From the NCBI RefSeq assembly GCF_964355755.1, contig NC_092671.1, positions 7,079,001 to 7,143,000 on the forward strand: a stretch of DNA of 64,000 nucleotides, read 5' to 3'. The translations under genes were made by a program, and so were the position numbers. Position 1 is the first letter of the stretch. Each line of letters begins with the position of its first letter. The notes under the pieces are model-generated. The model was not told the origin of the DNA. It ran no database searches and saw only the letters and a program-made list of their open reading frames with translations. This stretch comes from Antedon mediterranea. Its lineage: Eukaryota; Echinodermata; Crinoidea; Comatulida; Antedonidae. This document shows positions 28,801 to 63,409 of the stretch, in pieces.

Positions 28801-31800
28801 GCGCTACGCACGTAATTGTATTGCCATATGATGATTTATGCCCTGAAATTTATGAGTACCAAATTTTATTTAATTGTGATTCATGGTTGTGAAGATATGA
28901 TTACAAACGTGATTTCGTTAAATCGTGCGTAGACCGCGTAATTTTTTATTGCGCACCGTGAAAACATAACCACATCGATTCCTGGCCATAAGGAATATAC
29001 TGTGAAAAATTGACTTAGCTAGATTAAACTGATATCAAGATAAGGTCAGAAAGCGATAAAACGCATAGTGATACCGGACCGACAGACAGACCGACAGACC
29101 GACCGACCGACCGACATAGTGAACTATAGAGTCGCTTCCATGCGACTAAAAAAAGAAGAAGAAAAGGACTAGGCCTAAGGCATACAAGGAAAGACCAAAC
29201 TTGATAATCCATTGAATGAATAGAGGCAGCAAAAGTATCTAAAAGTGCGATAATAAAGACATTTCAAACATCATTCTTTCAAATTATTATTAAACTGACA
29301 ACATCTGTACTACACCAATGTTCTCATTGATTTCGATGACGGGTTTTGGGTGTTATTTTCATACCACATGAACAATTACATACAGTTTAAAATGACAAGA
29401 ATTTATCAAAATATGTAATGAAATAATTCAACTTAAATAACAGTTAGATGAGTGTTCGTTGAATGTTAATCGTGGGCAACAAATCACTTCACACAACAAT
29501 ATATATACACTCTTGTTATTAATTTATTTTAGGTATTGAGAAATTTTAAACCGCCTAGTGATATACTGGAAACTAGTTACATCAATAGGAATAACTTTGA
29601 AACTTAAGAACTCAACACTTGTTGATGTAAATTGATTTATGTAAGGAAGGTTCCTTTTAAATAAACAAACATACTGCAAGTTGCAAGTTGTATTATTAAA
29701 AAAAACGAGTTGAGTTGGCAGGTTTAAAGAAAGTAGAAAATAGAGACTGAATTTATTATAGAAACATATGACGCTAACGACAACTATTAAAAACATTGAT
29801 GATTGTGAACACAACATTGTAAAGAATAACGAATGATACTATTATAGTAGTGTTAATTAATTGAAAATTATGATAATGACAATGAAATTAATGAAAAAAT
29901 ACATAAACATAGGCCTAAATATGTTTAAAAATAATAAATTAATAAAGCATTGTAATTGGGTGTCTATTTTTATATCTTATTTTGGTTTGTTTTCTACAAT
30001 AAAAGTACATGATAGTAGGTCTCTATATGCTATTCTTTCTATGTATCTTTTCTGGTTTGTTTGTAATAAATCTTTCATGAACAACTTAACATGTTTATTG
30101 CACATAGAACACTTACGTCAAGGGTCGCCAATGCGCACCACCCCCAGCTAGGCCAAATAACAATGTCACAACTTTAATGGAATGTAGCATCCATAGTTAT
30201 TCTATGATATTCAGGCCAATTAAAATAATTGTTCTTACGTCTTAATACGGGTATTTATGAGATTTTTACTGTGCATTATGGGAAATTGGAAAAGGATAAT
30301 AAAACTATTGCATGTAATATTATTATGAATAAAACCACTGTTGAGCATAATACCAAAGAAGCGAAGTAAAAACATGTTTCTCTGCGTGATATAAAGACGC
30401 GCTCTGCCATATTATTTGGAACTTTCATTTTAAGTCCCATTTTTTATACATGGACACATTTAACCATTTATATATTATTTTCGAATTGTGTATATTTTGT
30501 TCAGATCATCAACGTACGGTAGTAAAACTTTTAAGGACATCTTATTGTTTCAGGAGGGAAGTGAAACTAATAATTCACCTGGCTATACAATGATGAAAAC
30601 ATCAGACTTTGTATGATTATTATTGAATGTAATTGTAAATTAATAGTTGTCTGATTGCTTTCATTAGCAATTATACTTGAAGCATCTGGGGTTCAAGTAA
30701 TATGAATGTAGAAGGAGTGCATAAGCGGATCGAGAGTTGTGTTTCATAAATGTCTTCCAGTGATAATAAATTGGCTAACCACTTATAAAGTAATTATGTA
30801 GAGTATGGTTGAAAAGGGTATAGCTAATTCTCCGTGGAACTAACTCACCAGTCGGTCGCAGATGATTTGGTATAAATATATTGGTGGATGGATGATGATT
30901 CAAATAAATTTCAAAAAATGGACACCATTTTCTCGTGGGACATCGGCCACAGAGGTTACCGAAATTGAGATTATTTTTTTAGGGGTAATAACTAAAGGGT
31001 GATTAGTTTTTATTTCCAGGTGTTTTTGTTTTGATGGTGATTTGCACAACTAAACAGCACAAACAGCACAAGCGGCGAAGCCATATTTCTAACGAAATGG
31101 TGAAATCAATCTAATTGCATCGTTTCACTAAAGGCGGCTCATTTAAACATGGTCCATGAAGAATTTGGAGAACATGCCAAAAGGCCACTAGTGTCTAAGC
31201 ATAGAATCTTTTTCAATGACTCTCAGAATTACACACATAGTATCATCACATTAAACTATTGGCTTCATATCCGTTTAATGATTTTTGTAATATTAATTTC
31301 ACATTTATCACACCTCAGAGCCTATAGTGGCGCCATTAAGCGGCATTTCAAATGAAATCAAATTTCTATTTCGATGCTAATTTCCGCGAATTATCTTTAT
31401 TCTACTCTTGTGATTTGGGTTTTGAAAATGCTTAGATGGTACCAACAATTTAATTTAAAATAAAACAGGATAATGCCCAAACGAATGTTTTGGACAACTT
31501 ACATTTTATAATTTAAAAAAAAAGTAGATCATATTATTCAACCAAATTATATTATCTTTATAATTGGACAGTTCGAGTAGATCGAGACTTTTAGCCCAAA
31601 CATACAACGATTATTTCGTATTTCAAATCGATGTTAACATGCGTAATCTGGCTTTAATGGGGAACCTATATTAAAAGCATCAGGAAATTATATGTATGTA
31701 CCTTTAGATGACGATTTGGCTTCTTCCAGAGCGTCCCCTTTTATCTGTATTGTACCTGTATCCGATGCCTCGATAGGACTAGCTGGATGTTTTTCATTTT

Positions 31801-32410
31801 TATCACCTGGTTCAAACACTTGATAAATTGCGACCTCTATATCATTGTCTTCGAACGCCGTTTTAAAAGCATCTGCTGTGAGTGACCAGACATGTTGCGA
31901 TGAAAAGAATATTCCTACTCTTGTAAACTTAAAATTCTGCATAATTTCCACAAAGAATGGCGACATTCTTTCATTTGGAGCAGTTGATCTGGCAAAGTTA
32001 GGGTACTGCTCTTTATCAGAAAGTGCGCTGCTTGAACAAGCCCATGATATCATTGGAATCTGCCAGTGTTTTGCGAGGTAACCGCCTGGTTCGCAGACGA
32101 CACTACAACCTGGTCCAATAAATGCGTCAACAGCAAACTGCTCATACATATCCAAGATGCTAGCTAGTCCTTTTGAGGTATCACAATCGGTATCATTCCA
32201 TATGAAAGTAAACGTATGGCCACCTCTATGAATTGCAGTTAAAGTTAAATCATTGTTGACCTTCTCTACAGCCACGGACATGGCTCCTCCAGAGCGCTTC
32301 CCGACAGGCCAAAATCCATCCCATGGAACCAAAAATCCAAGACGAAATATTTTACCTGAGCATGTTGAAAATACAAATAAGAAACTCAATAAAACTGTCA
32401 CAGGAATCAT
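4884..32410 (-). CDS. Receptor-type (natriuretic-peptide-receptor-like) guanylate cyclase, 21 coding exons
   Basis: Membrane receptor that converts GTP to cGMP when ligand binds outside the cell. Exons on the minus strand: 32410-31702, 25575-25393, 24311-24193, 23994-23859, 23322-23214, 22476-22358, 21962-21884, 21639-21504, 20535-20371, 20098-19994, 19270-19199, 18644-18488, 17702-17553, 17381-17204, 17040-16900, 15368-15245, 14468-14400, 13803-13626, 8281-8183, 5327-5236 and 4928-4884. All junctions are GT-AG with matching phases. They sum to 3,165 bases, or 1,054 residues, close to the usual length of about 1,050. Order of parts: signal peptide (1 to about 19), ligand-binding domain (20 to about 455), transmembrane helix (about 460-482), kinase-homology domain (about 535-800), coiled-coil linker (about 810-850) and cyclase (about 865-1035). 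Metal-binding Asp879 and Asp923, guanine-selecting Glu889 and Cys992, and catalytic Asn999 and Arg1003 are all present. The gene looks intact. The ligand cannot be told from the sequence. Confidence 0.97.
5838..6760. repeat. 34-bp minisatellite, about 27 copies, in cyclase intron 19
   Basis: The unit starts taatgttttcaggggttttg and ends gagagaaatcag; it is 34 bases long. A shorter 33-base variant (ttcaggattttgaggaga) is interspersed in the 3' half. Copies differ by single substitutions such as cagggg, cagagg and caggat, giving several subtypes in blocks. The array sits in the intron between exons 19 and 20. Open frames across it are artefacts of the 33-base units. Confidence 0.95.
7550..7573. 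repeat. (AAT)n microsatellite
   Basis: About eight AAT units lie in intron 19 of the cyclase. The rest of 6770-8180 is AT-rich intron in which I see nothing else. Confidence 0.85.
8439..9127. mobile_element. Long-armed inverted-repeat element (AAGGCCCATTTACACTAG), copy 1, with a nested insertion
   Basis: The ends AAGGCCCATTTACACTAGGG and its inverted partner at 9095-9127 are flanked by TA on both sides (8437-8438, 9128-9129). The inverted similarity continues inward for well over 100 bases. Compared with copy 2 at 16425-16826, this copy has about 281 extra bases at 8616-8896, bordered by the direct repeat ATGATTA. It lies in intron 18 of the cyclase and has no coding capacity. Confidence 0.85.
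8616..8896. mobile_element. 281-bp insertion inside the inverted-repeat element
   Basis: This block is absent from the sister element at 16425-16826. It is bordered by a 7-base duplication, ATGATTA, at 8609-8615 and 8897-8903, as expected for a transposition event. I see no terminal inverted repeats or coding sequence in it, so its class is unknown. Confidence 0.6.
10293..11891. mobile_element. About 1.6-kb noncoding repeat, tandem copy A
   Basis: It begins with ctagaatttaattcgtcact and the palindrome AATTCGTCACTTTGACGAATT, followed by ATAGGTGATCATTT. It ends with the hairpin TAGGTGATCATTT / AAATGATCACCTA. Copy B follows directly and is alike over its length apart from indels. A carries an extra roughly 27-base duplication near its start (10315-10350) and a stretch of gcgcg-rich sequence (11400-11560) missing from B. 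No open reading frame is supported. The element lies in cyclase intron 18. Confidence 0.8.
11892..13326. mobile_element. About 1.4-kb noncoding repeat, tandem copy B
   Basis: Head-to-tail partner of copy A with the same 5' cap and the same closing hairpin, ending at gatcaccta. Shared landmarks include atgacgtcatcaaaat, attgggggtcat and cgctcgtatagcgtt-like stretches. A reverse-oriented, diverged fragment of the same family is at about 60090-60300, and a lone 5' cap is at about 62440-62475. Confidence 0.8.
14127..14301. repeat. 25-bp minisatellite, 7 copies, each with an ATGCAAAT octamer
   Basis: Seven head-to-tail units beginning aatatgcaaatgaagatcgt and ending ggcat fill exactly 175 bases. 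Two units carry one substitution each. Every unit has a perfect ATGCAAAT, the binding octamer of POU-domain factors. It sits in the 0.6-kb cyclase intron between exons 17 and 18. There are no unique spacers, so it is not CRISPR-like. Confidence 0.95.
16425..16826. mobile_element. Inverted-repeat element (AAGGCCCATTCACACTAG), copy 2
   Basis: Ends AAGGCCCATTCACACTAGGA and the inverted partner near 16795-16826 are flanked by TA on both sides. The arms are about 180 bases each. This is the uninterrupted version of the 8439-9127 element. It lies in cyclase intron 15. Confidence 0.85.
18729..18896. mobile_element. Miniature element, TTGGTTCCCACTAG family, copy 1
   Basis: 168 bases with inverted ends AAGCTTGGTTCCCACTAG and AAGCGTGTTTCCCACTAG (the latter on the other strand) and TA on both sides. 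Internal palindromic halves carry CGCAACGCAAG and ACCAATGACAAGC. It lies in the intron just upstream of cyclase exon 12. Confidence 0.85.
19418..19599. mobile_element. Miniature element, TTGGTTCCCACTAG family, copy 2
   Basis: Near-identical to the element 0.7 kb away, with ends AAGCTTGGTTCCCACTAG and CTAGTGGGAACCACGCTT. It contains a short block (gttagcaatcacaagc) missing from copy 1. Lies between cyclase exons 10 and 11. Confidence 0.85.
19650..19800. mobile_element. Miniature element, same family, diverged copy 3
   Basis: The ends are weaker (tgcttggtgctcagtagaga) but the inner arms (acgcaacgcaaggacgtaag, and the inverted tgcgttgcgtctacgtcc) are clear. It lies 50 bases from copy 2. Confidence 0.7.
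21884..21962 (-). other. Transmembrane exon (exon 7) of the guanylate cyclase
   Basis: The 79-base exon encodes an uninterrupted hydrophobic helix beginning [20 protein letters not shown], followed by the basic residues expected on the inner side at the next junction (YR|NRLYERE). Acceptor TTACACAG and donor CAG|GTAATC are clear. Confidence 0.93.
22190..22343. mobile_element. Miniature element, same family, diverged copy 4
   Basis: Internal arms tgcaacgcaagaacgtagac and tgcacttacgtccctagtca face each other around the usual centre. The right end (ctctagtgggtaagc) nearly abuts the donor side of cyclase exon 6 at 22358. Confidence 0.65.
25040..25242. mobile_element. Miniature element, same family, copy 5
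   Basis: The left end AAGCTTGGTTCCCACTAGAG follows a TA. The right end is cut short after TTCTAGTGGGA. The core is diverged. It lies in cyclase intron 2, about 150 bases past exon 2. Confidence 0.65.
27720..28420. repeat. Purine-rich, strand-asymmetric tract in cyclase intron 1
   Basis: For about 700 bases the plus strand is dominated by purines (aagaaggaaagaag, gaggaaaaaagaattggagg, agagagaggagaaac). The transcript strand of the cyclase gene is therefore pyrimidine-rich here. Phrases such as gaatga-aga and aattagaa recur, as in a badly decayed tandem repeat. Two long minus-strand frames here encode only low-complexity Ser/Phe/Leu chains and are not genes. Confidence 0.6.
28432..29150. mobile_element. 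CCGA-repeat-ended element, long copy
   Basis: The left end reads aacaaggccatatagatagc then gcagtcgcgtgc, followed by accgaccaaccgaccaac. The right end has a longer (CCGA)n run, then catagtgaactatagagtcg and ccatgcgact. The interior shares cgtgctcgtataacgt with the 1.5-kb repeats at 10.3-13.3 kb. Short copies lacking the interior are at 33131-33232, 35073-35170 and 35762-35882. No coding sequence. Confidence 0.65.
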
Positions 32411-33130
32411 GTCTTTTTTCCCCTCAATTTTTAAACAAACTGCAGATCGATTTTATCCAGTAGATGATGTCCTGTAGTGCTTTTGATTACGCAGATGATG
32501 ATAAACAATATAACTATATAGTTGAAAATACCGGACAACATACTGTAAAGTCGCACGCGTTATCAGTGCGATCATATCACTCACAATGAATGGTACAATT
32601 TAATCTAATGAACAACAGAAATGGATCATCTTGGTAAACACTATTTATCCGAACACCTTACACAGGTAATCAATTAGTAGGAGCGAGAAAACTATAGTGG
32701 AGTAGTTTTCCGTGTATACAGAGGTTTCAAATAACGTTGAATATTTAAATTATTATCTAAATGAGGCTGCATACCGGATATAGAAAGTCTACAAGGAAAA
32801 AATCGAAGTAGGCCGTGCAAATAAAATTACGCACGTTCAGTTTTACAACACAGTAATAAATCATAACTATGTCTCGTCTGCTAATGTTTGCCGTAGGCTT
32901 GTAGCTCGGATAGTAAAACAATCAATCCAGTATTATATAACAAGCAATAAAATATTTGAAAGGTTAAAATCAATTAATAAAAGATAATTACTAACACCAG
33001 TTGTAGTGTGAACAATTGAGTTTTGTGAATAAATAAACGTACTGTGGACTGCCTAGTTACGGTCAATGTATAGATGGCGCTAACCTACAGTATAAGAAAC
33101 GTCTCCAAAACGGTTAATGAAATGACAAAC

Positions 33131-35246: not shown

Positions 35247-38200
35247 ATGATCAAGATGAAAGTCCATATATTGTGTCGTTTACTGCTTGCCGTAGTTGGA
35301 GTTATGGGTTTATATGACGAATACCCACAAGTTACAACTACGAATGGTGATATTTTTGGTGAAAGAATATATTATTCTGAAGATAAATATTTAAACTACA
35401 GCGGCTATTTCAACCACTTTAAAGGTATTCCTTATGCTAAGCCTCCAGTTGGTGACCTTCGTTTTCGTCCTCCTGAACCAGCAGAACCATGGTCAGAATC
35501 AACCTACAATGCAACTTACTACAGAAATGCATGTACTCAACGAATAGGGGTGGGTAATGAAGAATCACTAGCTGAAGATTGTTTGTACCTCAATGTACTG
35601 GTACCAGAGAATGTAAGTTTATCAATTGTTCTGAGAATCCAATATAATTTAACTGTAAATTACACTGTTAAGTTAATACTTAGTCTTAGTAAATCATGTA
35701 TTTCTCTATGGTAAATATAGTACGGTATGCACGCTTTCCCCTTATCTCAAGAAAAATAGAAATAAAAAGAGAACAAGGCCATATAAATGGCTGCAGTCGC
35801 GTGCTCAAGTTAGTGTTTACCGACCGACCGACCAACCGACCGACATAGTGAGTTGTAGAGTCGCGTTGCACGTACGCGACCAAAAAAGAGAATGTTTGAT
35901 AGTGCTAATGCTTGGTTCCCACTTCTTGAACGCAACGTAATTACGTAAGCGCGCATAATCACGACGCAATGAATCATTCGAACTGTCGCTTGTGATTTGT
36001 AAAGTCACTTGCGTTATAACCTACGTAGTTGTTGCGTCTAAGAGAACCAAAGCTTAAGAATCTTCGGAAATCTCAATGGTCGTAGAAAAAAAATGATTAT
36101 ACTGCTAGGCCTATTCTGTATATAATTGAGATGTTCAAAAAGGGTAGACCAAAGACATACAAACAATGTCTGATTCATGTTTTGTGTGTGTTTAAAGCTA
36201 ACTGATGCCGCAACAGTCTTGGTTTGGATTCATGGTGGGCAATATAGGTTTGGAACCGGCTCTGATCTTAGGTACTATGGCGTTCCATTAGTAGCAGCGG
36301 CTGGAGGTGACGTCGTCTACGTCACAATGAACTACAGATTAGGTGTTATGGGATTCCAAACTACGGGTATGTATACCATCATAATATGATTCATATCAGG
36401 TAAATTACTCAGACACAACCCAAATCCACTTGTCTATTAGACAAGACCTATATCAATGAGTCGTTGCGAATAGTAATTGTTGATCCTGTTTAAATTATTA
36501 ACATTTTCCAAATAAATAATGTGGAGCTTTAGAGTGTAGGATTTATATTCAAATATACTTCATATTTCTATGCTATAAAGGGGATGATGTGTCTCCAGGT
36601 AACTACGGCCTAATGGACCAACGCATGGCACTGGAATGGATTCAAGAAAATATCAAAGGTATAATATTTATTCGGCAAGTTTAAAATGTACATAACAATT
36701 TTTTCCAACAAAATCGCATTGTAACGGTAAATATTATTATGATTTTAACAACTTTGGAAAAATAAATCCCTGATTTGAAGGCAGCTTAATAGACAATGTA
36801 TACCATAAACAACAACGTCAAAATTATATCGCAATACTTGAGAGTATATTGTTGTGAACACAATGATACAAAAAGTAAAACGCGAAAGAGCGTAACAAGG
36901 TCAAGGACGTCTATGCAAAACTTTAGAAAACCATTATACAGTATGAATTGTCGCATTGAGTAAGATAGAATGGGATGACATTAGTAGACATAATACATAA
37001 TCCGTATTTATTTTCTAAATTCAACACCCACGAGACAACTGTCTTGTTATGAAATACATGCAAACAATCGCCTGGATCTAGAATCCACGAAAAAGGGGTG
37101 CCAAGGAATAAGTGAAGTGAGAATGCACCATGTCCCCGCATGTACAAAATGAATTAAAATGACATAGGCTGTAGGTCCTAGGTTGAGGTAGAGCATCCTA
37201 ATATTTTATCTTACAGCTTTTGGTGGTGACCCTGAGAAAGTAACAATCTTTGGTCTAAGCTCAGGATCAAGCAGTATAACCGCGCAGATATTGAACTCTC
37301 CAGAATCAGATCTCTTTCAAAGAGTAATACTACAGGTAGGCACATGTGGATGATTTTCGTATAAAGTAACTCGCGTAGTAGAATTGTAAAAAACAGTTGA
37401 CCATACTGTAATACATATGCCACACTACCCGAATCGTACTCACATTTAGAGTTTAAAAGATCCATATATCTAGTTGTGCTTCAAACATAAAAAAACATTC
37501 TCCCTGATGACACCTGACATCACATAACATGCACAGCTTTTTTTTGTAAAATCGAAAATGTACATTAGTAGGCATAATGAAGGATTTAAATAACACACAC
37601 GAAATGTTTTGAACGTTTGATCAACATTTTTCATAGAGTGGTTCAGTTTTTGACTCGTCCACACTGATAGAACTCAACATATCACGTGCTATTGACGTTA
37701 ATAAACAAGTAGCTTCCATATTAGGATGTGAGACCGAGTCGTCAACATTGATGGTTGCTTGTATGCGCAGTGCCAGTGTAAACGATATACTAGAAGCAGA
37801 ATATGAGGTGAGCTTTTAGTACAAGGGTAACTACTAGAATATTTCACTGGTGACGTAATTAGATTATGTAAAAACGCACTGACAGTGACATCTAGACGCA
37901 CTTCAACTACATGGTAAAACCCGTTTTCGTATATTCTGCTCTCTTCTGATAGAATCATCTTTTAATTGAGATTTGAAGGGAGTTTTAAGCTCTATCTACA
38001 CTATTAAACTAGAACAAAAATTGTGATGTGCCCAAATATGGTAGTGATAATATGTCATAAATGGGCATATCAATTGTTTTCTGTCACATAAATGTTGATA
38101 GTGTAGAGCATTATACAGTATGTAATATTTTATTTATTTTTAAAGGTTGAGGAACGTTATGCATCCCCTCGGTCAAGCACTATTCTATTTTATCCAGTAA

Positions 38201-39381
38201 TTGACGGGAAGTTTATTCCTGACACACCGGATAATCTCATAAAAAGAGGAGATTTTAAGAAAGTTGACGTGATTCTTGGCGTCAATGAGGATGAAGCTGG
38301 TACATGGTTGTCTCGAGTCTTTGAAGCAGAAACACTATCTATGGAAGAACCGCCACTTTTGAATAAAACTTATTTCACTGATCTATTGAAATATGTCTAT
38401 GGAAATGGAAACATGCTTTATATAGATTCAATTAAACAGGAATACACAGATTGGGAGTATGCGGATGACCCATACTATAATTACATTGACTCTTGGGTAA
38501 GAGTCAATTCCGATGCGTTGTATCATTGTCCAATTGATGTTACAGCTCGGGTGTTTGCTGAAGCTGGACAAAGTGTCTTCCGATATGTAAATACCCATAT
38601 CCCGTCAATATATGTAGGACACAGAATGCCTGCTCCAGAATGGCACGGTGTAACACATTTCCAAGAGGCAGCTTTTGTTTTTGGATTTCATTTTAATTCA
38701 CTAATTGATTTCAACAATACAGAGGAAGAAAGAATAATGTCGGTGAAGGTAATGCGCTACTGGACAAACTTTGCAAAAACAGGGTAATAATTTAATTTCA
38801 TCAGTTTAACCGAAACATCCATAATATTTAGGAGAAAATAAATTAAACATTAATTGATTTATTTTTGTAGTAATCCAAATACGGCAGAACCAAACGTGAC
38901 AAACGTAGCAGAACCATGGCCTCTGTTTACCGTTCCAGGCTTGGAATACAAAGAGTTGTCACCAGAAATGGAGAACAATCGAGCCTATGATGCAAGGGAA
39001 TGCTCCTTCTGGGCCAATTACGTGCCAAAGCTGTTATTTTATACAGGTAATTAATCAAAAGGCACATAGGGCCTACTTGTTTCGCCATTTTCCGCCATGT
39101 AGCAAACGATAGCTATAGGTACAAACACATCTGCCAACTCGGTATGTACACTTAAAGTTCGCAGAATTACATCTAACATCTTGATCTAATAATGATTTTA
39201 TCATTTCACATATCCATATAAAGCAATTACGTGAGTGATAAGGCCTCATATTTTATTTGCAGAGGATCTTTCAGAATTGGAAGAGGACTGGCGAAACAGT
39301 TATTATGACTGGAAGGACGAGTTGGACGAATGGCAGACAGTCTTTGATGAATACAAAGCCGCGACCGAACCATGTAATTAG
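35247..39381 (+). CDS. Cholinesterase-like alpha/beta-hydrolase with C-terminal T (tetramerisation) peptide, paralogue 1
   Basis: Predicted secreted carboxylesterase-family protein of 611 residues. Exons: 35247-35612, 36198-36366, 36581-36658, 37217-37335, 37637-37807, 38146-38783, 38871-39046, 39263-39381; all GT-AG with matching phases. The signal peptide (KVHILCRLLLAVVGVMG) is followed by [21 protein letters not shown] and EDCLYLN. Catalytic triad: Ser219 (GLSSG), Glu351 (VNEDEAG) and His472 (GVTH). The last exon encodes [10 protein letters not shown]...EWQTVFDEYK...C, the Trp/aromatic spacing and final Cys of the cholinesterase tetramerisation tail. Oddities: no Trp in the choline-binding omega loop, which is shortened; HGGQ where HGGG or YGGG is usual; Leu in place of the Glu before the Ser. 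So it is unlikely to be a true acetylcholinesterase. ATG at 35256 is an alternative start. An AATAAA lies at 39463. Confidence 0.94.
35762..35882. mobile_element. CCGA-repeat element, short copy (forward) in esterase intron 1
   Basis: aacaaggccatataaatggc, then gcagtcgcgtgctc, (CCGA)n, catagtgagttgtagagtcg and cgtacgcgac. It mirrors the copy at 35073-35170, so the first coding exon sits between two opposed copies. Confidence 0.75.
35907..36055. mobile_element. Miniature element, TTGGTTCCCACTAG family, copy 7
   Basis: Left end atgcttggttcccacttctt and right end agagaaccaaagctt are inverted; inner arms cgcaacgtaattacgtaa and tgcgttataacctacg. It lies in intron 1 of the first esterase-like gene. 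Confidence 0.7.
37987..38112. mobile_element. Miniature element, CTACACTATCAAACTAG family, copy 2
   Basis: aagctctatctacactatta at the left and gttgatagtgtagagcatt at the right are inverted. It lies in intron 5 of the first esterase-like gene and shares the core phrase gtgatgtgcccaaatatggt with the element at 4631-4762. Confidence 0.75.
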
Positions 39382-48926: not shown

Positions 48927-51900
48927 ATGTTTTGTTGGAGAACAAGTAGCTGTATTTTATTTCTTCTTCTGTCAATTATCGTATGTTCCTGTTATGGAGA
49001 AGCTCCTATAGTTTCTACTACATATGGCGACGTGTTGGGTGAAAGAATCTATTTTTCTGAAAATCAATATTTAAACTACAGCGGTAACTTTAGCCATTTC
49101 AAAGGGATTCCTTATGCTAAGCCTCCAGTAGGTGACCTTCGTTTTCGTCCTCCCGAAGCAGTAGAACCATGGTCAGATGTCTACAATGCAACTTATTACA
49201 GGAGTTACTGTCCGCAGAGTGCTGGAGGTTCTGAAGATTGCCTTTATATAAACGTGCTAGTTCCAGACAATAACGTAAGTTGAGATTTAGGTTTGCAATA
49301 CTGTATATGCTATTATAGTAATTTATTGCTGGTATAGGCCCCGATTATAGGGTCGGAGGTTAAGCAAGCAGTAGGATTCATACAAGGCTCCGATCTACAA
49401 AGCCTACAACTAAACTCTATTTTCGTAAGCCGGATACCAAATGTCATTCTCAACACCAATCCCTATTCGAGGGGGAGCTATAGTAGGCCAACTGCCAAAT
49501 TCTAATGTATATATGTTATTTTCTGACTTAACACGTTCGGTAAATCAATCGCATTGCATGTTACGTAATATTATTATTATTATTTACTTTTATATATCAT
49601 TACATATTTACTTATATATCATATATTTAAATTATATTATTAAATATTTACTTATATATATTTTATTGTTCCAGCTGTACACGTATGAAAAAACTTTACT
49701 ATTAAGTGAATGTAAGCATTTATAACAATATTTATCGAGATCGATCACCATTGGTAGGATGAATCTTTGTCTAAGAATAATAAAAAAAACATTAGAAATG
49801 CCTTGCTTATAATTTTTTCAATAATTAAAACATTTTCTACCCCTACAGTTAACCGATGTCGCAGTTTTAGTTTATTTCTATGGCGGACAGTATATCGCAG
49901 GTTCTGGAGCTGAAGCTTATTACTGGGGCGTACCACTGCTAGCAGCTTCTGGCGGTGACGTCATTTACGTCACATTCAACTACAGATTGGGAGTTCTTGG
50001 ATTTCTATCAACAGGTTGGTAATTGCAAGAAATTAGGGAAAACGATCCTTTAAAAGTTTGGTTAGTTTTTACAGCCACGTGTAATAAACTTTTTTGCACA
50101 GTCATCGGGATAAAATTCTTTTACTAATAAAGATATTTTCTTTTTTTGTATTTAGGTGATGACATAGCTCCTGGTAATTATGGGTTGCTAGACCAAAGCA
50201 TGGCGATACAATGGGTATATAACAATATCAAAGGTAAAACCATTGTAAAACATAGAAAAATAGAACAAAAATGATGGATGGTTTAAAATAGGAAACCATT
50301 TGAAAACATTTCTGGTTATAAATAATTAATTAAAAACAGATTTGGTTTTAGCGCCGTTTTTACCTTCATTTCATGTGCTGCGGTGGGATATAAGTAAGGC
50401 AGGGCTTAAATAAAATATTGTTTGATAGCCCTGGGCTAGGTCAGTTTCGTTTTCTATATGACAGACAAATTCTTCTCACAACCTTTTCTATGCTGAATGC
50501 ATTTTGTGCTTAATTTTAAAGCTTTTGGCGGAGATCCATATAAAATAACAATAGGCGGTATAAGTGCTGGCTCTGGTAGCGTCAGTGCTCAACTGTTGGC
50601 GCATTCTGAAGACAATCTTTTCCAGAGAGCAATTATGCAGGTACTGTATAGTAAAAAAAATATATATACAAGCAAAATAAAAATAAATTTTGTAACAAAC
50701 ACATAAACGGAAATTCCACAGAAAGTCTCAAATGATAAATCATAATAATCATCCTAATCAAAATGATATAATTGTCGAAACATTCAAATATATAACTGTT
50801 AACAATGATCTCAGTATATCGTCATTTTATAATTGTGTTGGTGAACCTTCGGAAACTGAGGTTTCTATTCCTATAATGTTAAAGATCATAAAACGTGATT
50901 GAACAAAAGACTTCCATCTCATTCACTTTGATCCTAATAAAAATGCATTCTCTATCATAGTTTTCAAACACTCTTATAAACCCATCTTTTTTCTTTTTTT
51001 CTCTCAGCGCTTTGGGACAATTTTTTGACTGATAAATCGAACAACATTACATTGAACTATAATATCTCAATACTTTGATACATGTTGGATTTAATATGTA
51101 TAACAATTGTATTGCTATTATTACAGAGTGGTTCAATGTTTGAACGTTCTGCCATGATTGAACTCAACATATCACGTGCAGTTGACGCCAATAGGCAAGT
51201 GGCTTCTATATTAGGGTGTGAGACGACGTCATCATCATACATGATCACGTGCATGCGCAACGCTAGTGTAAATGATATTCTAGCAGCCACGGGTGAGGTA
51301 AGTTTGACTAATGACAAACGACTTGTGTTCTACGTAATAAAGTGGTGGTGTAGAAATTTGATATGATTTCATTTCATGCGCGCTTTTTTCGTCTTGCTGA
51401 CAAAAATTAACATAGGTATCGATTCTAATGTACAAAACAGAAAACACAATATTAAAACAAATCGTTTAATTTCAAAGAAAAGTCTATAAAAAATTCATTT
51501 TGCTGTAGTAGGAATTAACAGTTAGATTAAGATTAACTTATTACATTTTTTATCAACATGATTGGGTTTAAAATAGTTAGGCCTACATTTGATAGTGTAG
51601 AAAGAACAATTCATTTTACCAATATACTATTTAACGTAGCCTAAATAAATAATAAATGTAAATTACTAATTTAGAAACATTTAGGTCACTAGCATAGGCC
51701 TACTGTTTGTTTTTAGATGATTAACCAATGTTGTTCTCATGAAGGTGACACAGAGATATAATCTTCCGAGAAGGTCTCCTGTGTTTTATCCAGTTGTAGA
51801 TGGAAAGTTTATTCCAGATCATCCGCAAAATCTCATTAAACGAGGAGAATTTAGCAAAGTTGATGTTATTCTCGGCACAAATCTAGATGAAGGAACATAC

Positions 51901-53778
51901 TGGTTAAACCGAATTTACGATTCAAACCAACTTCTAAATGACGAACCTCCATTCATGAATCGTACCTACTTTCAAGATAATCTTCAGAAAGTTTACCAAA
52001 ATGAAAACATCCTGTTTGTTGAGTCCATTATGCAAGAATATACTGATTGGGAGTTTGCAGATGACTTGGAGTACAACCATATTTACCCCTGGGTTCTAAT
52101 ATCTACAGACGACATATTTCAGTGTCCAACTGACGCTACGGCTAGGACTTACGCAGACGCCGGTAGAGCTGTCTACCGATATGTAAATACGCACATACCG
52201 TCCCGACGCACTTTATCGGACGCATATAGACCCGAATGGATTGGAACATCCCATATTGATGAATTACCGTATGTTTTTGGGTGGTACTTTAATTCAGAAT
52301 TCGAAACCAAGTTTAACCAAACCGAAGAAGAAATTATGATGTCGATTAAAGTTATGCGTTACTGGACAAACTTTGTGAAAACCGGGTAAAAACCTTAACT
52401 TCAATTCCAATACTCCTTAAGGCCTGTCTACACTATCAAACTAGTTTGATAATGTACACCTTTAACTATCATTAATATTAATGTTATACTGTATACATAT
52501 TTCCTTTCTATGCAATCTGGCATTTGCACACGTAGGCCTACTACCACCAATATATATTTTACACGTTTATCACCGTACCTATTTGCCACTCTATTATCGT
52601 CACTTACATTTTTATGAGAATAGGTCTAATCCAACTTTCCAGGTTTTTGTTCTTCAATTTCACGTTCTGTGTAGGCACTGTATACCTTGGAATGTGATTA
52701 GGTTCTTCTTTATTACAGCGATCCGAATATGGCTGACACAGCTGATACGATTGTGGCCGAGAAATGGCCTTTATTCACAATTCCCGGATTAGAATATAAG
52801 AAATTATCACCTGAAATGGAAAATTCCCGAGCAGTCAACGCGAGAGAGTGTTCTTTCTGGGCGAACTATATTCCAAAAGTTTCTCTTTATACAGGTAATA
52901 ATAAATAAATAAAACATATAGCCTATATTCGATCATCCAACACTGAAGACTTGCCCTCGCTCATTGCGCGATATTTGGCCAAATCCAAATTGACCTGACC
53001 TTGACGGATTTCACTAAAAGTGTGTCAATGCTGTCTCATTTAGGCTAATTCCACTACAATCATGTGTATGCGTGTTTGGTGTAAAGGTTATGTAACCAGC
53101 CTATTAACTAACAATAGCTTCAGTCGACAACAATAGAACAGCAACGCAAAAAACACGGGTGAATTTGAAAAAAAAACTTGTATATTAAATCTAATTAAGT
53201 TTTAAAATTAAAAATCACAAATTATAACTCTTGTACAAAAATGAAGTTGTTTGGAGTAGTAGTTTTCGAGAAAATGCAATTTAAATTTACTTGTTTACTT
53301 TAAGACTGCTCACCGGCTTGTAAAAATTCTGTCTTATCTTTTAACACTAGCAGGTCTGAAAATAATTCTAAAAAGTGGTCCAGAATTGGGACCTTGGTCC
53401 GGATTTTCACCAAAATTGGGCAGTGTCGTCCTTGCAACAGGCGACATGTATGGTAGTAATTTGGAGTCATTCGAATCAAAGCGATAGAGTGATGACATTC
53501 AAACACACAAACCGAACAGATCAACATACTTGGCCAATTTTCAATTTGGCCAAGTAAAAATTAATAAAAAAATAAAATAGTTCAGACTAAAATGAATTTT
53601 CTTGAGGTATATTATCTATACGAAATTCCATTTTTTTTTTTTTTTTGCAGATGACCTTTCAGAACTGGAAATAGACTGGCGAAACAGTTATTACGACTGG
53701 AAATATTTTGCATTAAACGATTGGCAAAAGGCATTTGATGAATATAAAAACCAGAAGAAAGAATGCCCTAATCCATAG
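48927..53778 (+). CDS. Cholinesterase-like alpha/beta-hydrolase with C-terminal T (tetramerisation) peptide, paralogue 2
   Basis: 608 residues, with the same eight-exon plan and intron phases as the gene at 35247-39381: 48927-49274, 49849-50014, 50156-50233, 50522-50640, 51127-51297, 51745-52385, 52719-52894, 53651-53778. The start ATG at 48927 gives a signal peptide ([16 protein letters not shown]) and has A at -3; the frame is open a little further upstream without an ATG. Triad: Ser212 (GISAG), Glu343 (TNLDEG), His464 (GTSH). The final exon encodes a full-length T-peptide-like tail: [14 protein letters not shown], then [11 protein letters not shown] and a Cys four residues from the end. 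The loop between the two N-terminal Cys residues ([12 protein letters not shown]) has only nine residues, compared with about 26 in acetylcholinesterase, and no Trp. YGGQ replaces the usual YGGG. An AATAAA lies at 54137. The upstream promoter lies against the right end of the fold-back region. Confidence 0.94.
52420..52457. mobile_element. Fragment of the CTACACTATCAAACTAG element
   Basis: aggcctgtctacactatcaa followed by actagtttgataatgtaca; only one end of the 4631-4762 family is present. It lies in intron 6 of the second esterase-like gene. Confidence 0.55.
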
Positions 53779-54547: not shown

Positions 54548-56066
54548 GCTTCCCACCTTTGTGGTACATAAAACATACACATAAACCGCCCTCTTATTCA
54601 CTGAATGCGCTCATTCATTTGTTTGCAGAGGGAGGGAATACTTCCCTGGTTTGCAATGCCACGATATCATTGAATTCTGTTACGACGACGAAGAATCCTA
54701 CGATTTAGATTATAAGTTGGTTTTTTATAATCAAATCATTATAATAGACAATTTTACGTAAGTGGTAATATTATTTAAGTATTATAGTATATAGTATATA
54801 TATTTAAGTTATTGAAGTATAGGCACAATAAGGGCGCGTTTATACAACACGCTATTACACGCATATTCAACACGCCTACGAGAAGTGTGTTGTATAAGAA
54901 GAGATTCCGTGTAATGAGATTTTAATTGCAAAAAAGCCTACTTGGCTGAATCCTTAGGATTATGAACTACGGTATAACACGGTATTACGATTTCATGTAT
55001 AACTGCAAGGTTTTTGTGGGGTTGACCTCGGCCCGTGCAACACGCTAAAAATTAAAGACGTGTTTATTTATTTTAGGGTGTTAATAATAAGCCTAGTAGG
55101 CCTATTAGTAGAGGCCACAACTTACTTGGCCTAATATAATAATTATTAACATGTAGTTAGTAGTTATAAAACCGACGTTTCAGCTTGTTTCCAAGAGTGT
55201 GTACAGAGGAATATTACTAAGTCTACACCCTAGAATATAATTATTATGTAATCTCTGCCTACTTATACCAACTATATTTGCCTTGAGCATGAATAAAATA
55301 TATAGGACAGGCATCACTGTCTATGAAAACCTAATCCTGCCACATGAATATAAATAAACCTATGTCGAAATTTCGACCTAAATGAATAGTGGCACTGTAA
55401 TTTTGTTTTTTTTTTCAAAAAGACGGAAAACTTAGGAAACTGTTTCAGGAGAAAGATATTTTAGTACTACGGCTTCGGGAATGGGAAGTTGTAAAATGGG
55501 ACTGGTAATGCTCATGAGTAGGCCTATGTAGGCCTACTAGTTGTTGTTGTGCACTGATTTAGTACGTCTGAGGGAACAGAGAGAAATTGAAATGTTCCAT
55601 TCATCGCTAAGCAATACATTTGTAGAAGCGTATATTAAATCTATTAAAATAGTACTTTTGATAAAGTTGCTGGTTTGTCTTCAACATTATGATGTTGTAC
55701 TCGAGATGTTTAACCGGTTTACAACAATTAAAAATAATTTATGTAGATTACTCACTTTTTATTTAAATAATTTTAGAATACTTTTTACAGTTCTTTTATT
55801 TTTATTTAAACTTAATTGAACCGAGATAAATAATTCAGTTTTGATTTTGGTTTGATTGATAACAAATAATTTATTTGACTTTAGTTATCACTTACTATAA
55901 AATGAGATAAACCAAGTTACAGTAGTAATGAGCTAGCAGTAGGCATATAACTCAATTGCCTGCGTTGCTTCATCGACACAAACAGTAAGTACTTTGTACT
56001 ACATTCTATATAGTCACTAGAATATTAAAATTAATAATACTGTACTATTATTTGTCTATAGAAAGA
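53779..56066. other. Gap between second esterase-like gene and first sulfotransferase-like gene
   Basis: It holds the 3' untranslated region (AATAAA at 54137), an irregular tctggcataattt repeat (54340-54500), a T30 run (54517-54546), and a short inverted repeat around cttatacaacac and gtgttgtataa (about 54838-54898). At its end is the likely 5' noncoding exon of the next gene, with donor ACA|GTAAGT at 55985. No other gene is seen. Confidence 0.6.
54340..54546. repeat. Irregular (TCTGGCATAATTT) repeat followed by T30
   Basis: The phrases atctggcataat and ctagcataatttgg recur about eight times, with spacer bases between copies, before a 30-base T run at 54517-54546. Confidence 0.75.
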
Positions 56067-56951
56067 ATGGCTGATCAAGTTCGTGTAATCCTTTGGTGTA
56101 TACCTCGTACAGTTTCTACTGCCTTTTCAAAATGTATGAGCTACCTTGACAACGCGCAAGTCATAAATGAGCCGTATTTGTCCGCGTACTCCGTTGGACC
56201 TGAACGATTTCCTCCATCAAAAGGTTTGGAAAAAGATGCAGACATGTTCATAAACAAATCAAATGCCGTAGCTTCAGAATACGGTGGTGGTTTTGAAGCA
56301 GACGTGGCAACATACAAGTATGTTAAAGAGAATATTTTGGAGGCTGAATATCCAGGCAAGAATGTGGTATTTGTCAAAGATATGTCGCATAGCATCACAT
56401 GGAAACTCCATATGCTACCTAAAGGCTATCGACATGCATTCTTGATTCGAAATCCTGTCAAAGTGTTTCCTTCTTGGAAGAAAATGCTAAACAATTTTCA
56501 GAAGGCACTTTCTTCAGAGTTCCGCTTGGAGAACAACAATAATAATGTTCCAAAAAGGTATGGCTTTGGAGAAAGTCTCGAATTGTATGAGCATCTTATA
56601 AAGACCGGAATCGAACCAGACCCGATAATCATAGATTCTGATGATCTCTTGGAAAATCCAGAAATGATTTTAAGGGAGTTTTGCAAGCGCACAGGAATTC
56701 AGTATGACGACAAATTATTGAATTGGGATACAGGAGAAGGTGTTCTACAGAAATGGAAGGCTAATAATGTATATTTAAAAGGTCATAAAGTATTTGGTTA
56801 TTATGACAAAGTGCTTGCAAGTGAACGTTTTCACAAACCTGAACCGTCCGCTGATCGTGCGGAACTATCAGAAGATGTGAATACATGTATTGACGCCGCA
56901 TTGCCATACTATGAAAAATTGTATGCTCTACGTCTGTGTGGAGAAACTTGA
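56067..56951 (+). CDS. Sulfotransferase-like P-loop protein, paralogue 1
   Basis: 294 residues, uninterrupted. Members of this family are often named sulfotransferase-like or, misleadingly, branched-chain-aminotransferase-like. The N-terminal ILWCIPRTVSTAF (PRTVSTAF at residues 13-20) matches a 5'-phosphosulfate-binding loop. HAFLIRNPVKVFPSW (Arg128, Ser136) matches the 3'-phosphate-binding segment of PAPS-dependent enzymes. An NEPY motif follows the first helix. There is no signal peptide or membrane helix, so it is probably cytosolic. The ATG follows a 3' splice site (TTTGTCTATAG|AAAGAATGG), and a donor ACA|GTAAGT at 55985 gives a 79-base intron in the 5' leader. AATAAA lies at 56983. The acceptor substrate is unknown. 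It is the founder-like copy: its 3' flank differs from that shared by the other two. Confidence 0.9.
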   Translation: MADQVRVILWCIPRTVSTAFSKCMSYLDNAQVINEPYLSAYSVGPERFPPSKGLEKDADMFINKSNAVASEYGGGFEADVATYKYVKENILEAEYPGKNVVFVKDMSHSITWKLHMLPKGYRHAFLIRNPVKVFPSWKKMLNNFQKALSSEFRLENNNNNVPKRYGFGESLELYEHLIKTGIEPDPIIIDSDDLLENPEMILREFCKRTGIQYDDKLLNWDTGEGVLQKWKANNVYLKGHKVFGYYDKVLASERFHKPEPSADRAELSEDVNTCIDAALPYYEKLYALRLCGET

Positions 56952-58216
56952 ATACTTTTTAGAAAAATAGATAGTGTCGTCCAATAAAGTATAAATAAAG
57001 TGTAATGATTTTTAAAAAGTGAACATCAACAACCTCTCAAATACGATTGACTTGACTTCCGAACCTTGATCCTTCATAATATTCTCTATTCTAATATAAA
57101 TAAGCCCAATAATATATAAGGAAAAGTTAACAAATAATTAAATATTTTATCTAGATAAAGGCTATTTAATATTAATATGCAATTTCGTTTATTGTTTATA
57201 AACAAAACTGAGGTTGAACTACAGTATATTGTATTCAGATTTTAGTTTTAGATTATTAAATAAACATAATAGACTCTTGGTAATGGTGTTCATTTTTCAT
57301 ATTCCGCAAAAGCGCACGCGTACAAAAGCGCACGCGTACAAAATTAAGAGCGATATGAGATTTAACCACCTTACGATGTTTTTATAACCTCAATCATGGA
57401 AAAATAATTTTCCTGTTAATACTGGAAAGATTTAGATACAACTAAAACGATTGGTTTTATTATACAATTTTAAATAATCATTTGTGCTCAGATTCACTTC
57501 ATAGCAGCATCAATCGAATTTAATTCATCATTTTTACAAATTATTTGTGTTTAATTGTGTTTATCTGTAGTTGTTTATGCTTAGTATTTTAATTTTTCAC
57601 GCATGTACAAAACAAATCGTGTTGCAATAACTAATTAGGCCTAATACCCGTTTCAATGGATCTATAGTTTCGGACTTTGTTACTTAGCAAACAGTATTAT
57701 CCCCTAATATGACACTAAATACAGTTACAGTCACCAGGTGCTCCAATAAATCTACTTTACACTACTGCAGGTAAACATTTTATTTGTTAAATTTCAGCAG
57801 ATAATATAAGTTTTAAGTAAGATTACGGCCTTACAGCATGTAGAATTACAGTTAATTGTTTGTAACTACTGTAGAGTAGCTTTACGTCAAGGTGTTGAAG
57901 AAATTTGTCAGATGTTTGCCCTACTCTGACGTAATTTATACTAAGTACATTGAGGATATAGTACTTGCAAAAAAAATTCGCAAGTAATTCTAGGATGGGA
58001 CTCGAACCCACGGCCTCCATCGAGCTTGCGCTGATGGCTAGCGGTTAGATTCGAGCTCAGGTAAGCAGCGGGTACTGCACCAATCGCAAATTTGTTCTCA
58101 AGTATTCTCAATAAACTTAGTAGGCCTATAATGTACAAATTACGTAAGAGTTTAGAGAAAATAGTTGACCAATTAATTTTACCTTCATAGTTATTATTAC
58201 AGATTTGTTAGAAACA
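56952..58216. other. Gap between sulfotransferase-like genes 1 and 2
   Basis: AT-rich, with AATAAA at 56983 and an 18-base motif repeated in tandem (aaaagcgcacgcgtac, about 57306-57341). A tRNA-like stretch near 57990-58075 is described separately. A 3' splice site (TTATTATTACAG at 58191-58202) precedes gene 2. No other gene is seen. Confidence 0.5.
57990..58075 (-). repeat. tRNA-like (possible SINE) fragment
   Basis: On the minus strand the stretch ggaggccgtgggttcgagtc is a good B-box/T-arm of a tRNA gene. The neighbouring tggctagcggttaga looks like an A-box, but on the opposite strand. No complete cloverleaf can be drawn, so this is at most a rearranged tRNA-derived repeat. Confidence 0.35.
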
Positions 58217-59098
58217 ATGACTGAACAAGTTCGTGTAATTCTTTGGTGTATTCCGCGGACAGTTTCTACTGCCTTTGAGAAATGTATGAGCCAGCTTGAC
58301 GACGTGCAGATCATAAATGAGCCGTACGAGTCTGCATTCACCATTGGACCAGAAAAGTTTCCTCCAGAAGAAGGTTTTGAAAGAGAAGCAGATATATTTA
58401 TAGAGAAATCAAATGCCATAGAGTCTGGGTATGATGGCGGCTGGGAGCCAGATGTGGCAACATACAAGTTTATTAAAGAGAATATTTTGGAGGCGGAATA
58501 TCCAGACAAGAATGTAGTGTTTGTCAAAGACATGTCATATGCCATTACATGGAAACTCCATATGCTGCCTAAAGGCTACCGACATGCATTCTTGATTCGT
58601 AATCCCGTCAAAGTTTTTTCTTCTTGGAAGAAAATGGTGACCAAATTTGAGAAAGGGCGTTCTACAAAACTACCTTTAATAAACAATAACTATGTTGTTC
58701 CAAAAAAATATGGTTTTGGAGAAAGTCTCCAACTATACGAGCATCTTGTAAAGACCGGAATCGAACCAGATCCGGTAATTGTAGATTCTGATGACCTTTT
58801 GGAAAATCCGGAATTAATTTTACGAAAATTGTGTAAGCGCACAGGAATTCAATATAATGACGACTTATTGAACTGGGATGCAGGAGAAAGTGTTACACAC
58901 AAATGGAAGGCTTCTAATGTATATATGAAAGGCCACAAAGTATTTGGTTATTATGACAAAGCATTTGCAAGTGAGGGTTTCCAAAAACCCGAAGAACCAC
59001 CCATTGACCGCACGAAATTATCAGAAGATGTGAATGTCTGTATTGACGCCGCATTGCCATACTATGAACAATTATATGCTCTACGTATATGTGCATAA
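58217..59098 (+). CDS. Sulfotransferase-like P-loop protein, paralogue 2
   Basis: 293 residues with the same layout as the copy at 56067-56951: PRTVSTAF near the N-terminus, NEPY, then FLIRNPVKVFSSW with the conserved Arg and Ser, and the C-terminal block NVYMKGHKVFGYYDKAFASE. A short charged stretch (KGRSTKLPLINNN) replaces the Asn-rich one of the first copy. The ATG follows a 3' splice site (TTATTATTACAG|ATTTG), so the leader is probably spliced. AATAAA signals lie only 14 bases after the stop (59112) and again at 59197 within a duplicated phrase (aaaataaacagaatgattta). Its downstream flank is shared with the third copy. Enzymatic function is inferred from motifs only. Confidence 0.9.
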   Translation: MTEQVRVILWCIPRTVSTAFEKCMSQLDDVQIINEPYESAFTIGPEKFPPEEGFEREADIFIEKSNAIESGYDGGWEPDVATYKFIKENILEAEYPDKNVVFVKDMSYAITWKLHMLPKGYRHAFLIRNPVKVFSSWKKMVTKFEKGRSTKLPLINNNYVVPKKYGFGESLQLYEHLVKTGIEPDPVIVDSDDLLENPELILRKLCKRTGIQYNDDLLNWDAGESVTHKWKASNVYMKGHKVFGYYDKAFASEGFQKPEEPPIDRTKLSEDVNVCIDAALPYYEQLYALRICA

Positions 59099-62475: not shown

Positions 62476-62533
62476 TCATATAGTTATTTAAATAACTTGC
62501 TATGAATTGTCAATTTGTTCTAGTATAGGCAGA

Positions 62534-63409
62534 ATGACTGAACAAGTTCGTGTAATTCTTTGGTGTATTCCTCGTACAGTTTCTACTGCCTTTGAGAAAT
62601 GTATGAGTAACCTTGACGATGTACAGATCATTAATGAGCCGTACGTGTCCGCGTTCACCATTGGGCCAGAAAAGTTTCCTCCACCAGAAGGTTTGGAAAA
62701 AGAAATAGATATATTTATAGAGAAATCAAATGCCATAGTTTCGGGGTATGATGGTGGCTGGGAGCCAGACGTGGCAACCTACAAGTTTATTAAAGAGAAT
62801 ATTTTGGAGGCTGAATATCCAGGCAAGAATGTGGTGTTTGCCAAAGATACGTCATATGCCATCACATGGAAACTCCATATGCTACCTAAAGGCTACCGAC
62901 ATGCATTCTTGATTCGCAATCCTGTCAAAGTGTTTCCCTCTTGGAAGAAAATGTTAAACAATTTTCAGAAGACACTTTCTTCAGAGTGTTTGGAAAACAA
63001 CAATAATTTTGTGCCAAAAAAATATGGTTTTGGAGAAAGTGTTCAATTGTATGAGCATCTTGTAAAGACCGGGATTGAACCAGACCCGGTAATCATAGAT
63101 GCTGATGATCTTTTGGAAAATCCAGAAATGATTTTAAGAGAGTTTTGTAAACGCACAGGAATTCTGTATAGTCACGAATTATTGAATTGGGATGCAGGAG
63201 AAAGTGTTACACACAAATGGAAGGCTTCTAATGTATACATGAAAGGCAACAAAGTATTTGGTTATTATGACAAAGCATTTACAAGTGAACGTTTTCACAA
63301 ACCTGAACCGCCCGCTGATCGTGCAGAACTACCAGAAGATGTGAACGTCTGTATTGACGCCGCATTGCCATACTATGAACAATTGTATGCTCTACGTCTG
63401 TGTACATAA
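62534..63409 (+). CDS. Sulfotransferase-like P-loop protein, paralogue 3
   Basis: 291 residues, uninterrupted. Closest to paralogue 2 in the N-terminal half and to paralogue 1 in the Asn-rich stretch (LNNFQKTLSSECLENNNN), as if gene conversion had mixed the copies. PRTVSTAF, NEPY and FLIRNPVKVFPSW (with Arg and Ser) are retained. The usual FVKDMS before the central Trp reads FAKDTS here. Start at ATG 62534; a possible 3' splice site (TTCTAGTATAG) precedes it. A longer in-frame stretch upstream has no ATG. AATAAA at 63423. Its 3' flank repeats that of paralogue 2. Confidence 0.9.
   Translation: MTEQVRVILWCIPRTVSTAFEKCMSNLDDVQIINEPYVSAFTIGPEKFPPPEGLEKEIDIFIEKSNAIVSGYDGGWEPDVATYKFIKENILEAEYPGKNVVFAKDTSYAITWKLHMLPKGYRHAFLIRNPVKVFPSWKKMLNNFQKTLSSECLENNNNFVPKKYGFGESVQLYEHLVKTGIEPDPVIIDADDLLENPEMILREFCKRTGILYSHELLNWDAGESVTHKWKASNVYMKGNKVFGYYDKAFTSERFHKPEPPADRAELPEDVNVCIDAALPYYEQLYALRLCT

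Follow-up and report, generated by a model that had tools for sequence, protein, structure and literature searches.

The window, a stretch of 64,000 nucleotides of the genome of the crinoid Antedon mediterranea, contains two adjoining genes on the forward strand, each made up of eight exons that are joined across GT-AG introns into a complete spliced reading frame (Table 1). Gene 2 was recovered exactly, exon by exon, by spliced alignment from gene 1. The N-termini of both products are hydrophobic and have the appearance of signal peptides. Both proteins belong to the cholinesterase lineage and are probably secreted enzymes of the carboxylesterase type.

Three tandem paralogous open reading frames of about 305-320 aa, intronless in appearance, are also present on the forward strand (55989-56951, 58169-59098, and 62492-63409); two of these were scanned and both match Pfam Sulfotransfer_5. 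The reverse strand has an exon that encodes a receptor ligand-binding region together with a hydrophobic stretch at the N-terminus (31688-32452; Pfam ANF_receptor, E 9e-38), and an open frame of 220 codons (1618-2280) with no Pfam match at E 0.01.

Table 1. Positions of the two esterase genes and their features in the window, and of related loci elsewhere in the genome. Residue numbers are those of the encoded proteins.
Feature	Position	Strand	Details
Gene 1, W84-less cholinesterase-lineage esterase	35247..39381	+	611 aa; spliced model; COesterase E 1.2e-134
Gene 1 exons	35247-35612, 36198-36366, 36581-36658, 37217-37335, 37637-37807, 38146-38783, 38871-39046, 39263-39381	+	
Gene 1 Cys96-Cys112 loop	35532..35582	+	short omega loop, W84 absent
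Gene 1 catalytic Ser219	37258..37260	+	GLSSG; alignment with Torpedo AChE
Gene 1 catalytic Glu351	38293..38295	+	
Gene 1 catalytic His472	38656..38658	+	
Gene 1 intron 7	39047..39262	+	phase 1; position of the intron before the T exon in the W84-bearing cholinesterases of the genome
Gene 1 exon 8, T/WAT tail	39263..39381	+	W582, W589, W596, F600, C610; 7-7 spacing
Gene 2, W84-less cholinesterase-lineage esterase	48927..53778	+	608 aa; spliced model; COesterase E 6.3e-134
Gene 2 exons	48927-49274, 49849-50014, 50156-50233, 50522-50640, 51127-51297, 51745-52385, 52719-52894, 53651-53778	+	
Gene 2 Cys95-Cys105 loop	49209..49241	+	equivalent of omega loop C67-C94; shortened, W84 absent
Gene 2 catalytic Ser212	50563..50565	+	GISAG; Ile just before is the cholinesterase E199 position
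Gene 2 catalytic Glu343	51889..51891	+	
Gene 2 catalytic His464	52252..52254	+	
Gene 2 intron 7	52895..53650	+	phase 1; position and phase of the intron before the T exon in the W84-bearing cholinesterases of the genome
Gene 2 exon 8, T/WAT tail	53651..53778	+	W576, W583, W591, F595, C605; 7-8 spacing
W84-less T-tailed genes	window (two genes); C2:38.57-38.59 Mb (three); C2:35.564 Mb (one); C1:36.357-36.397 Mb (six, clustered)		
ColQ-like collagen gene, outside the window	C2:36304384-36310872		14-exon model, 548 aa

Both proteins share the COesterase fold with acetyl- and butyrylcholinesterase and, in alignment with Torpedo AChE, whose numbering is used here, they retain the catalytic triad (Ser200, Glu327, and His440), the oxyanion glycines, and the cysteines of the C67-C94 and C402-C521 pairs. 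They differ from these enzymes in their short omega loop, in their placement in a separate clade, and in having five extra 5′ introns. Residues W84, E199, and W233 were sought in both proteins by the same alignment and are absent, with Leu or Ile in place of E199 and Ser in place of W233. The window proteins should thus be hydrolases or transferases, not cholinesterases. We infer a non-choline ester as the substrate, which would probably be hydrolysed (or used in acyl transfer). The CEST carboxylesterases of nematodes are likewise cholinesterase-related with a non-choline role, and CEST-9.2 has a C-terminal transmembrane helix where the window genes have a T peptide (PMC12931606).

The C-terminal tail

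The tails of gene 1 and gene 2 are similar to the T (WAT) peptide of vertebrate AChE and BChE (PF08674, 1VZJ) in being encoded by a separate last exon, in the stripe of three Trp residues, in the Phe and Tyr that follow the third Trp, in the terminal Cys, and in the predicted helix. The spacing is W-7-W-7-W in gene 1 and W-7-W-8-W in gene 2, followed by F...Y and the terminal Cys in both. The tails differ from the vertebrate peptide in having W84-less carriers, in the eight rather than seven residues between Trp 2 and Trp 3 of gene 2, and in falling below the Pfam cut-off: the isolated tail of gene 1 scores 22.1 bits and that of gene 2 12.3 bits with AChE_tetra, whose gathering cut-off is 25. 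The W-7-W-8-W spacing is also that of the three W84-bearing cholinesterases encoded on contig C5 of this genome; the extra residue may alter the packing of the helix round a proline-rich segment.

An independent tail HMM was made from six tails of W84-bearing cholinesterases, those of human AChE, Torpedo AChE, and human BChE (PDB sequences) and of the three C5 genes. It scored 17.1 bits with gene 1 and 24.1 bits with gene 2, scores reached by none of 20,000 shuffles of either tail, and the two tails were the top two of 1,499 open reading frame segments in the window (E 4.4e-6 and 5e-4; the third had E 1.5). When full-length proteins were compared using phmmer, the alignment of gene 2 with human BChE (4tpk) covered the T peptide as far as the Cys at its end. 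For the gene 1 tail alone, the best PDB match was the AChE T peptide 1VZJ, with a weak E of 0.02. In a structure prediction covering the tail exon of gene 2, residues 4-34 are predicted to form one continuous helix (pLDDT about 95). Homology of the tail to the cholinesterase T peptides is supported by the profile match together with the separate last exon and the same intron position and phase.

These results bear on a preliminary description of this DNA. It placed the gene 2 tail at 53651-53778, exactly where exon 8 of the spliced model lies, and it was correct that the last exon of both genes encodes a T-like tail, that this is a separate 3′ exon (the phase-1 intron in front of it aligns with that of the animal's own W84-bearing cholinesterases), and that the carriers have no choline site. 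Its statement that the residues are spaced as in the vertebrate T peptide holds for gene 1, while gene 2 is off by one residue. The profile comparison that it proposed likewise gives a divided answer, both tails being found by the cholinesterase-tail HMM and neither reaching the Pfam cut-off. The tail is also found on W84-bearing cholinesterases of this crinoid, which makes the label 'vertebrate-type' misleading. The proteins described as 'not acetylcholinesterases' do belong to the cholinesterase lineage, and their triad is intact.

T exons across the genome and selection on the tail

Overlapping searches of the assembly (354 Mb in 18 contigs, labelled C1, C2, C5, etc.) identified 15 T exons, all of which, among those modelled, are on genes of the cholinesterase lineage. 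Three are on W84-bearing cholinesterases (C5 at 4.07, 8.53, and 15.45 Mb), which have a long omega loop with its Trp (EMWNP) and tails that are over the Pfam AChE_tetra cut-off. The other 12 belong to genes whose loop is short and lacks W84. In models of the W84-bearing genes, raising the minimum intron length removed a false intron of 42-51 bp that skipped the omega loop. The spacing of the aromatic residues is conserved over all 15 tails, and in an alignment of 13 of them the three Trp and the Phe are invariant. Outside the Trp stripe, the tails of the W84-less and W84 clades consistently differ; the gene 2 tail has 38-66 % identity to most other W84-less tails, compared with 26-39 % to the tails of the genome's own cholinesterases.

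At C2:35.765-35.827 Mb there is a tandem cluster of at least 10 related W84-less genes, the last gene model of which runs up to the limit of the sequence examined. None of the genome searches detected a T exon near this cluster, and its four fully covered models have a different tail.

In the six-gene cluster on C1, dN/dS is about 0.09-0.10 in the T exon versus 0.32-0.33 in the body of the protein. Among 480 body segments of the same length, 13 have dN/dS below that of the T exon, the lowest being round the nucleophile elbow. The dS of the tail is not reduced in these genes and recent gene conversion is therefore no explanation. The tail is under selection on these W84-less proteins, which are related to those of the window. 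The window pair has a dN of 0.23 for the tail and 0.27 for the body, and its dS is saturated, so this comparison is less informative than that of the C1 paralogues. Several paralogue models have uncertain 5′ ends, and these were left out of both the rate tests and the tree.

Origin of the tail

The last two introns have the same alignment positions and phases in the W84-less clade and in the W84-bearing cholinesterases of the genome (phase 2 at ..FAKT/G and phase 1 before the T exon), the T-exon intron being the one placed in the C5 gene at 8.53 Mb. The window genes have five 5′ introns that the C5 genes lack. Given the shared positions and phases of the last two introns, the tail would most simply have been inherited from a common ancestor of both clades.

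A long-branched row (C5_6.42) blurred the backbone of the first tree; the tree without it resolved into three well-supported groups, one of W84 cholinesterases with Drosophila and mosquito AChE among them (100/99), one formed by the W84-less clade (98/98), and an outgroup of carboxylesterases, neuroligins, and one gene of the same genome (95/98). The analysis covers a single genome and few outgroups, with incomplete neuroligin and insect rows, and the tree uses sequences returned from the database. AU tests rejected the nesting of the W84-less clade within deuterostome cholinesterases (p 0.012 and 0.0075) and its grouping with the C5 genes of its own genome (p 0.037). In the tree without C5_6.42, placing the W84-less clade together with the neuroligins was not rejected (p 0.24). 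The outgroups are without W84, and the W84 clade, to which the insect AChEs belong, does not contain the W84-less clade. The shortest history would therefore be that W84 was gained once, on the cholinesterase branch and after the tail; this is favoured, not proven.

Were the window genes instead ordinary AChE paralogues that lost W84 secondarily, the tail would be a leftover of an acetylcholinesterase past. They do belong to the cholinesterase lineage, and the C402-C521 pair is common to them and the cholinesterases and absent in CES2. However, such a loss is at odds with the separation of their clade from the one holding the insect AChEs, with both of the rejected placements, and with a tail that is not decaying, and it is considered unlikely; a deeper loss of W84, before the insect split, is possible. 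The W84-less esterases could also have acquired the T exon from an ancient cholinesterase through shuffling of 3′ exons, in which case the tail would be silent on its age relative to the choline site. Independent evolution of cholinesterase C-termini, with shuffling of the 3′ exons of the genes, has been proposed (PMC3045457), and the T exon is indeed a terminal exon behind a phase-1 intron. The preceding phase-2 intron is, however, also common to both clades at the same position, and the tails group by clade, that of gene 2 being nearer to most W84-less tails, so any transfer would be old. Shuffling is on balance improbable here, but this proposal, together with the use of a single genome, limits what can be said of the age of the tail relative to the choline site.

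The function of the tail might also be to form mixed tetramers with true AChE subunits, and not tetramers of its own. Both tail types occur in one genome with matching Trp stripes; their consistent differences outside the stripe speak against this, and it appears quite improbable. Chance resemblance of a Trp-rich C-terminus, for which the Pfam scores below the cut-off could be cited, is refuted by the shuffled tails, the common intron position and phase, and the conservation in 15 genes, and has a negligible probability. The best explanation overall is that these are non-choline esterases with a real T (WAT) peptide, most likely assembling in the manner of AChE-T, and this is probable.

A ColQ-like gene and the proposed assembly

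A query with the C-terminal domain of human ColQ had two matches genome-wide, both of them adjacent exons of one locus. The encoded protein has, in order, a signal peptide, a VWC-like domain, two tandem PRAD-type motifs, collagen repeats, a globular stretch, and a Cys-rich ColQ-type end; Collagen is over its Pfam cut-off, and VWC and DUF4215 are slightly below theirs. The proline-rich motifs, LPPPPVIPPPPP (residues 115-126) and LPPPPITPPPPP (residues 158-169), are both in one exon. The succession of PRAD-type attachment motif, collagen triple helix, and Cys-rich C-terminal domain is that of ColQ. Vertebrate ColQ has one PRAD per chain, and this protein differs from ColQ in its two tandem motifs within a single exon, the preceding VWC-like domain, the lack of a nearby Cys, and later collagen repeats, which resume after the first C-terminal globular stretch. 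No Cys is present between residues 92 and 206. Since none is close to either motif, a disulfide link is not obvious, and the bond that joins the T-peptide Cys to the anchor in vertebrates may be absent here.

For PRiMA, a genome search with Pfam PRIMA1 gave sub-threshold matches only, the best being a C-rich stretch broken by stops, and this is not evidence of absence. The search for an anchor that was suggested in the preliminary description has therefore produced a ColQ-like gene with two PRAD-type motifs and no PRiMA match above threshold.

On the mechanism described for AChE (PMC5943944), the tail would fold as an amphipathic helix with a Trp stripe, as in AChE-T, and four such tails would wrap one polyproline-II segment, the tetramer being taken over from the AChE mechanism. 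Through its two proline-rich motifs the ColQ-like collagen could then tether tetramers to the extracellular matrix, a pairing that we infer.

Because the tails are on proteins without the choline residues and a ColQ-like gene with PRAD-type motifs is present in the same genome, tail and anchor appear to be separable from the choline site. It had been suggested at the outset that the system is older than, or separable from, acetylcholine hydrolysis; separability from the choline site is supported and greater age is favoured, not proven. Tentatively, the T-peptide/PRAD system may have arisen on a general esterase before there was a choline site, and the two-PRAD ColQ may anchor the twelve non-choline T-tailed esterases to the matrix, two tetramers to each collagen chain; this is a possibility, short of being the expected outcome. 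The T peptide with ColQ or PRiMA is known as a means of placing acetylcholinesterase at synapses. Given constrained T tails on a non-choline clade and a two-motif ColQ-like gene, the idea that synaptic AChE borrowed a pre-existing device for anchoring esterases to the matrix becomes testable. The open-access literature yielded no reports of T peptides on W84-less esterases or of invertebrate ColQ, which, with subscription papers outside the scope of the search, is not evidence of absence.

An approximate query resembling another collagen C-terminal motif had no matches in the genome and was without a positive control. A genome scan for PPPP[hydrophobic]xPPPP gave 47 matches, compared with 55 in the reversed control, and is uninformative save for two matches, which are the motifs of the ColQ-like gene. 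A match to this pattern, coding for PPPPMAPPPP, is located at C2:38620424, about 26 kb beyond the cluster of T-tailed esterases at C2:38.57-38.59 Mb.
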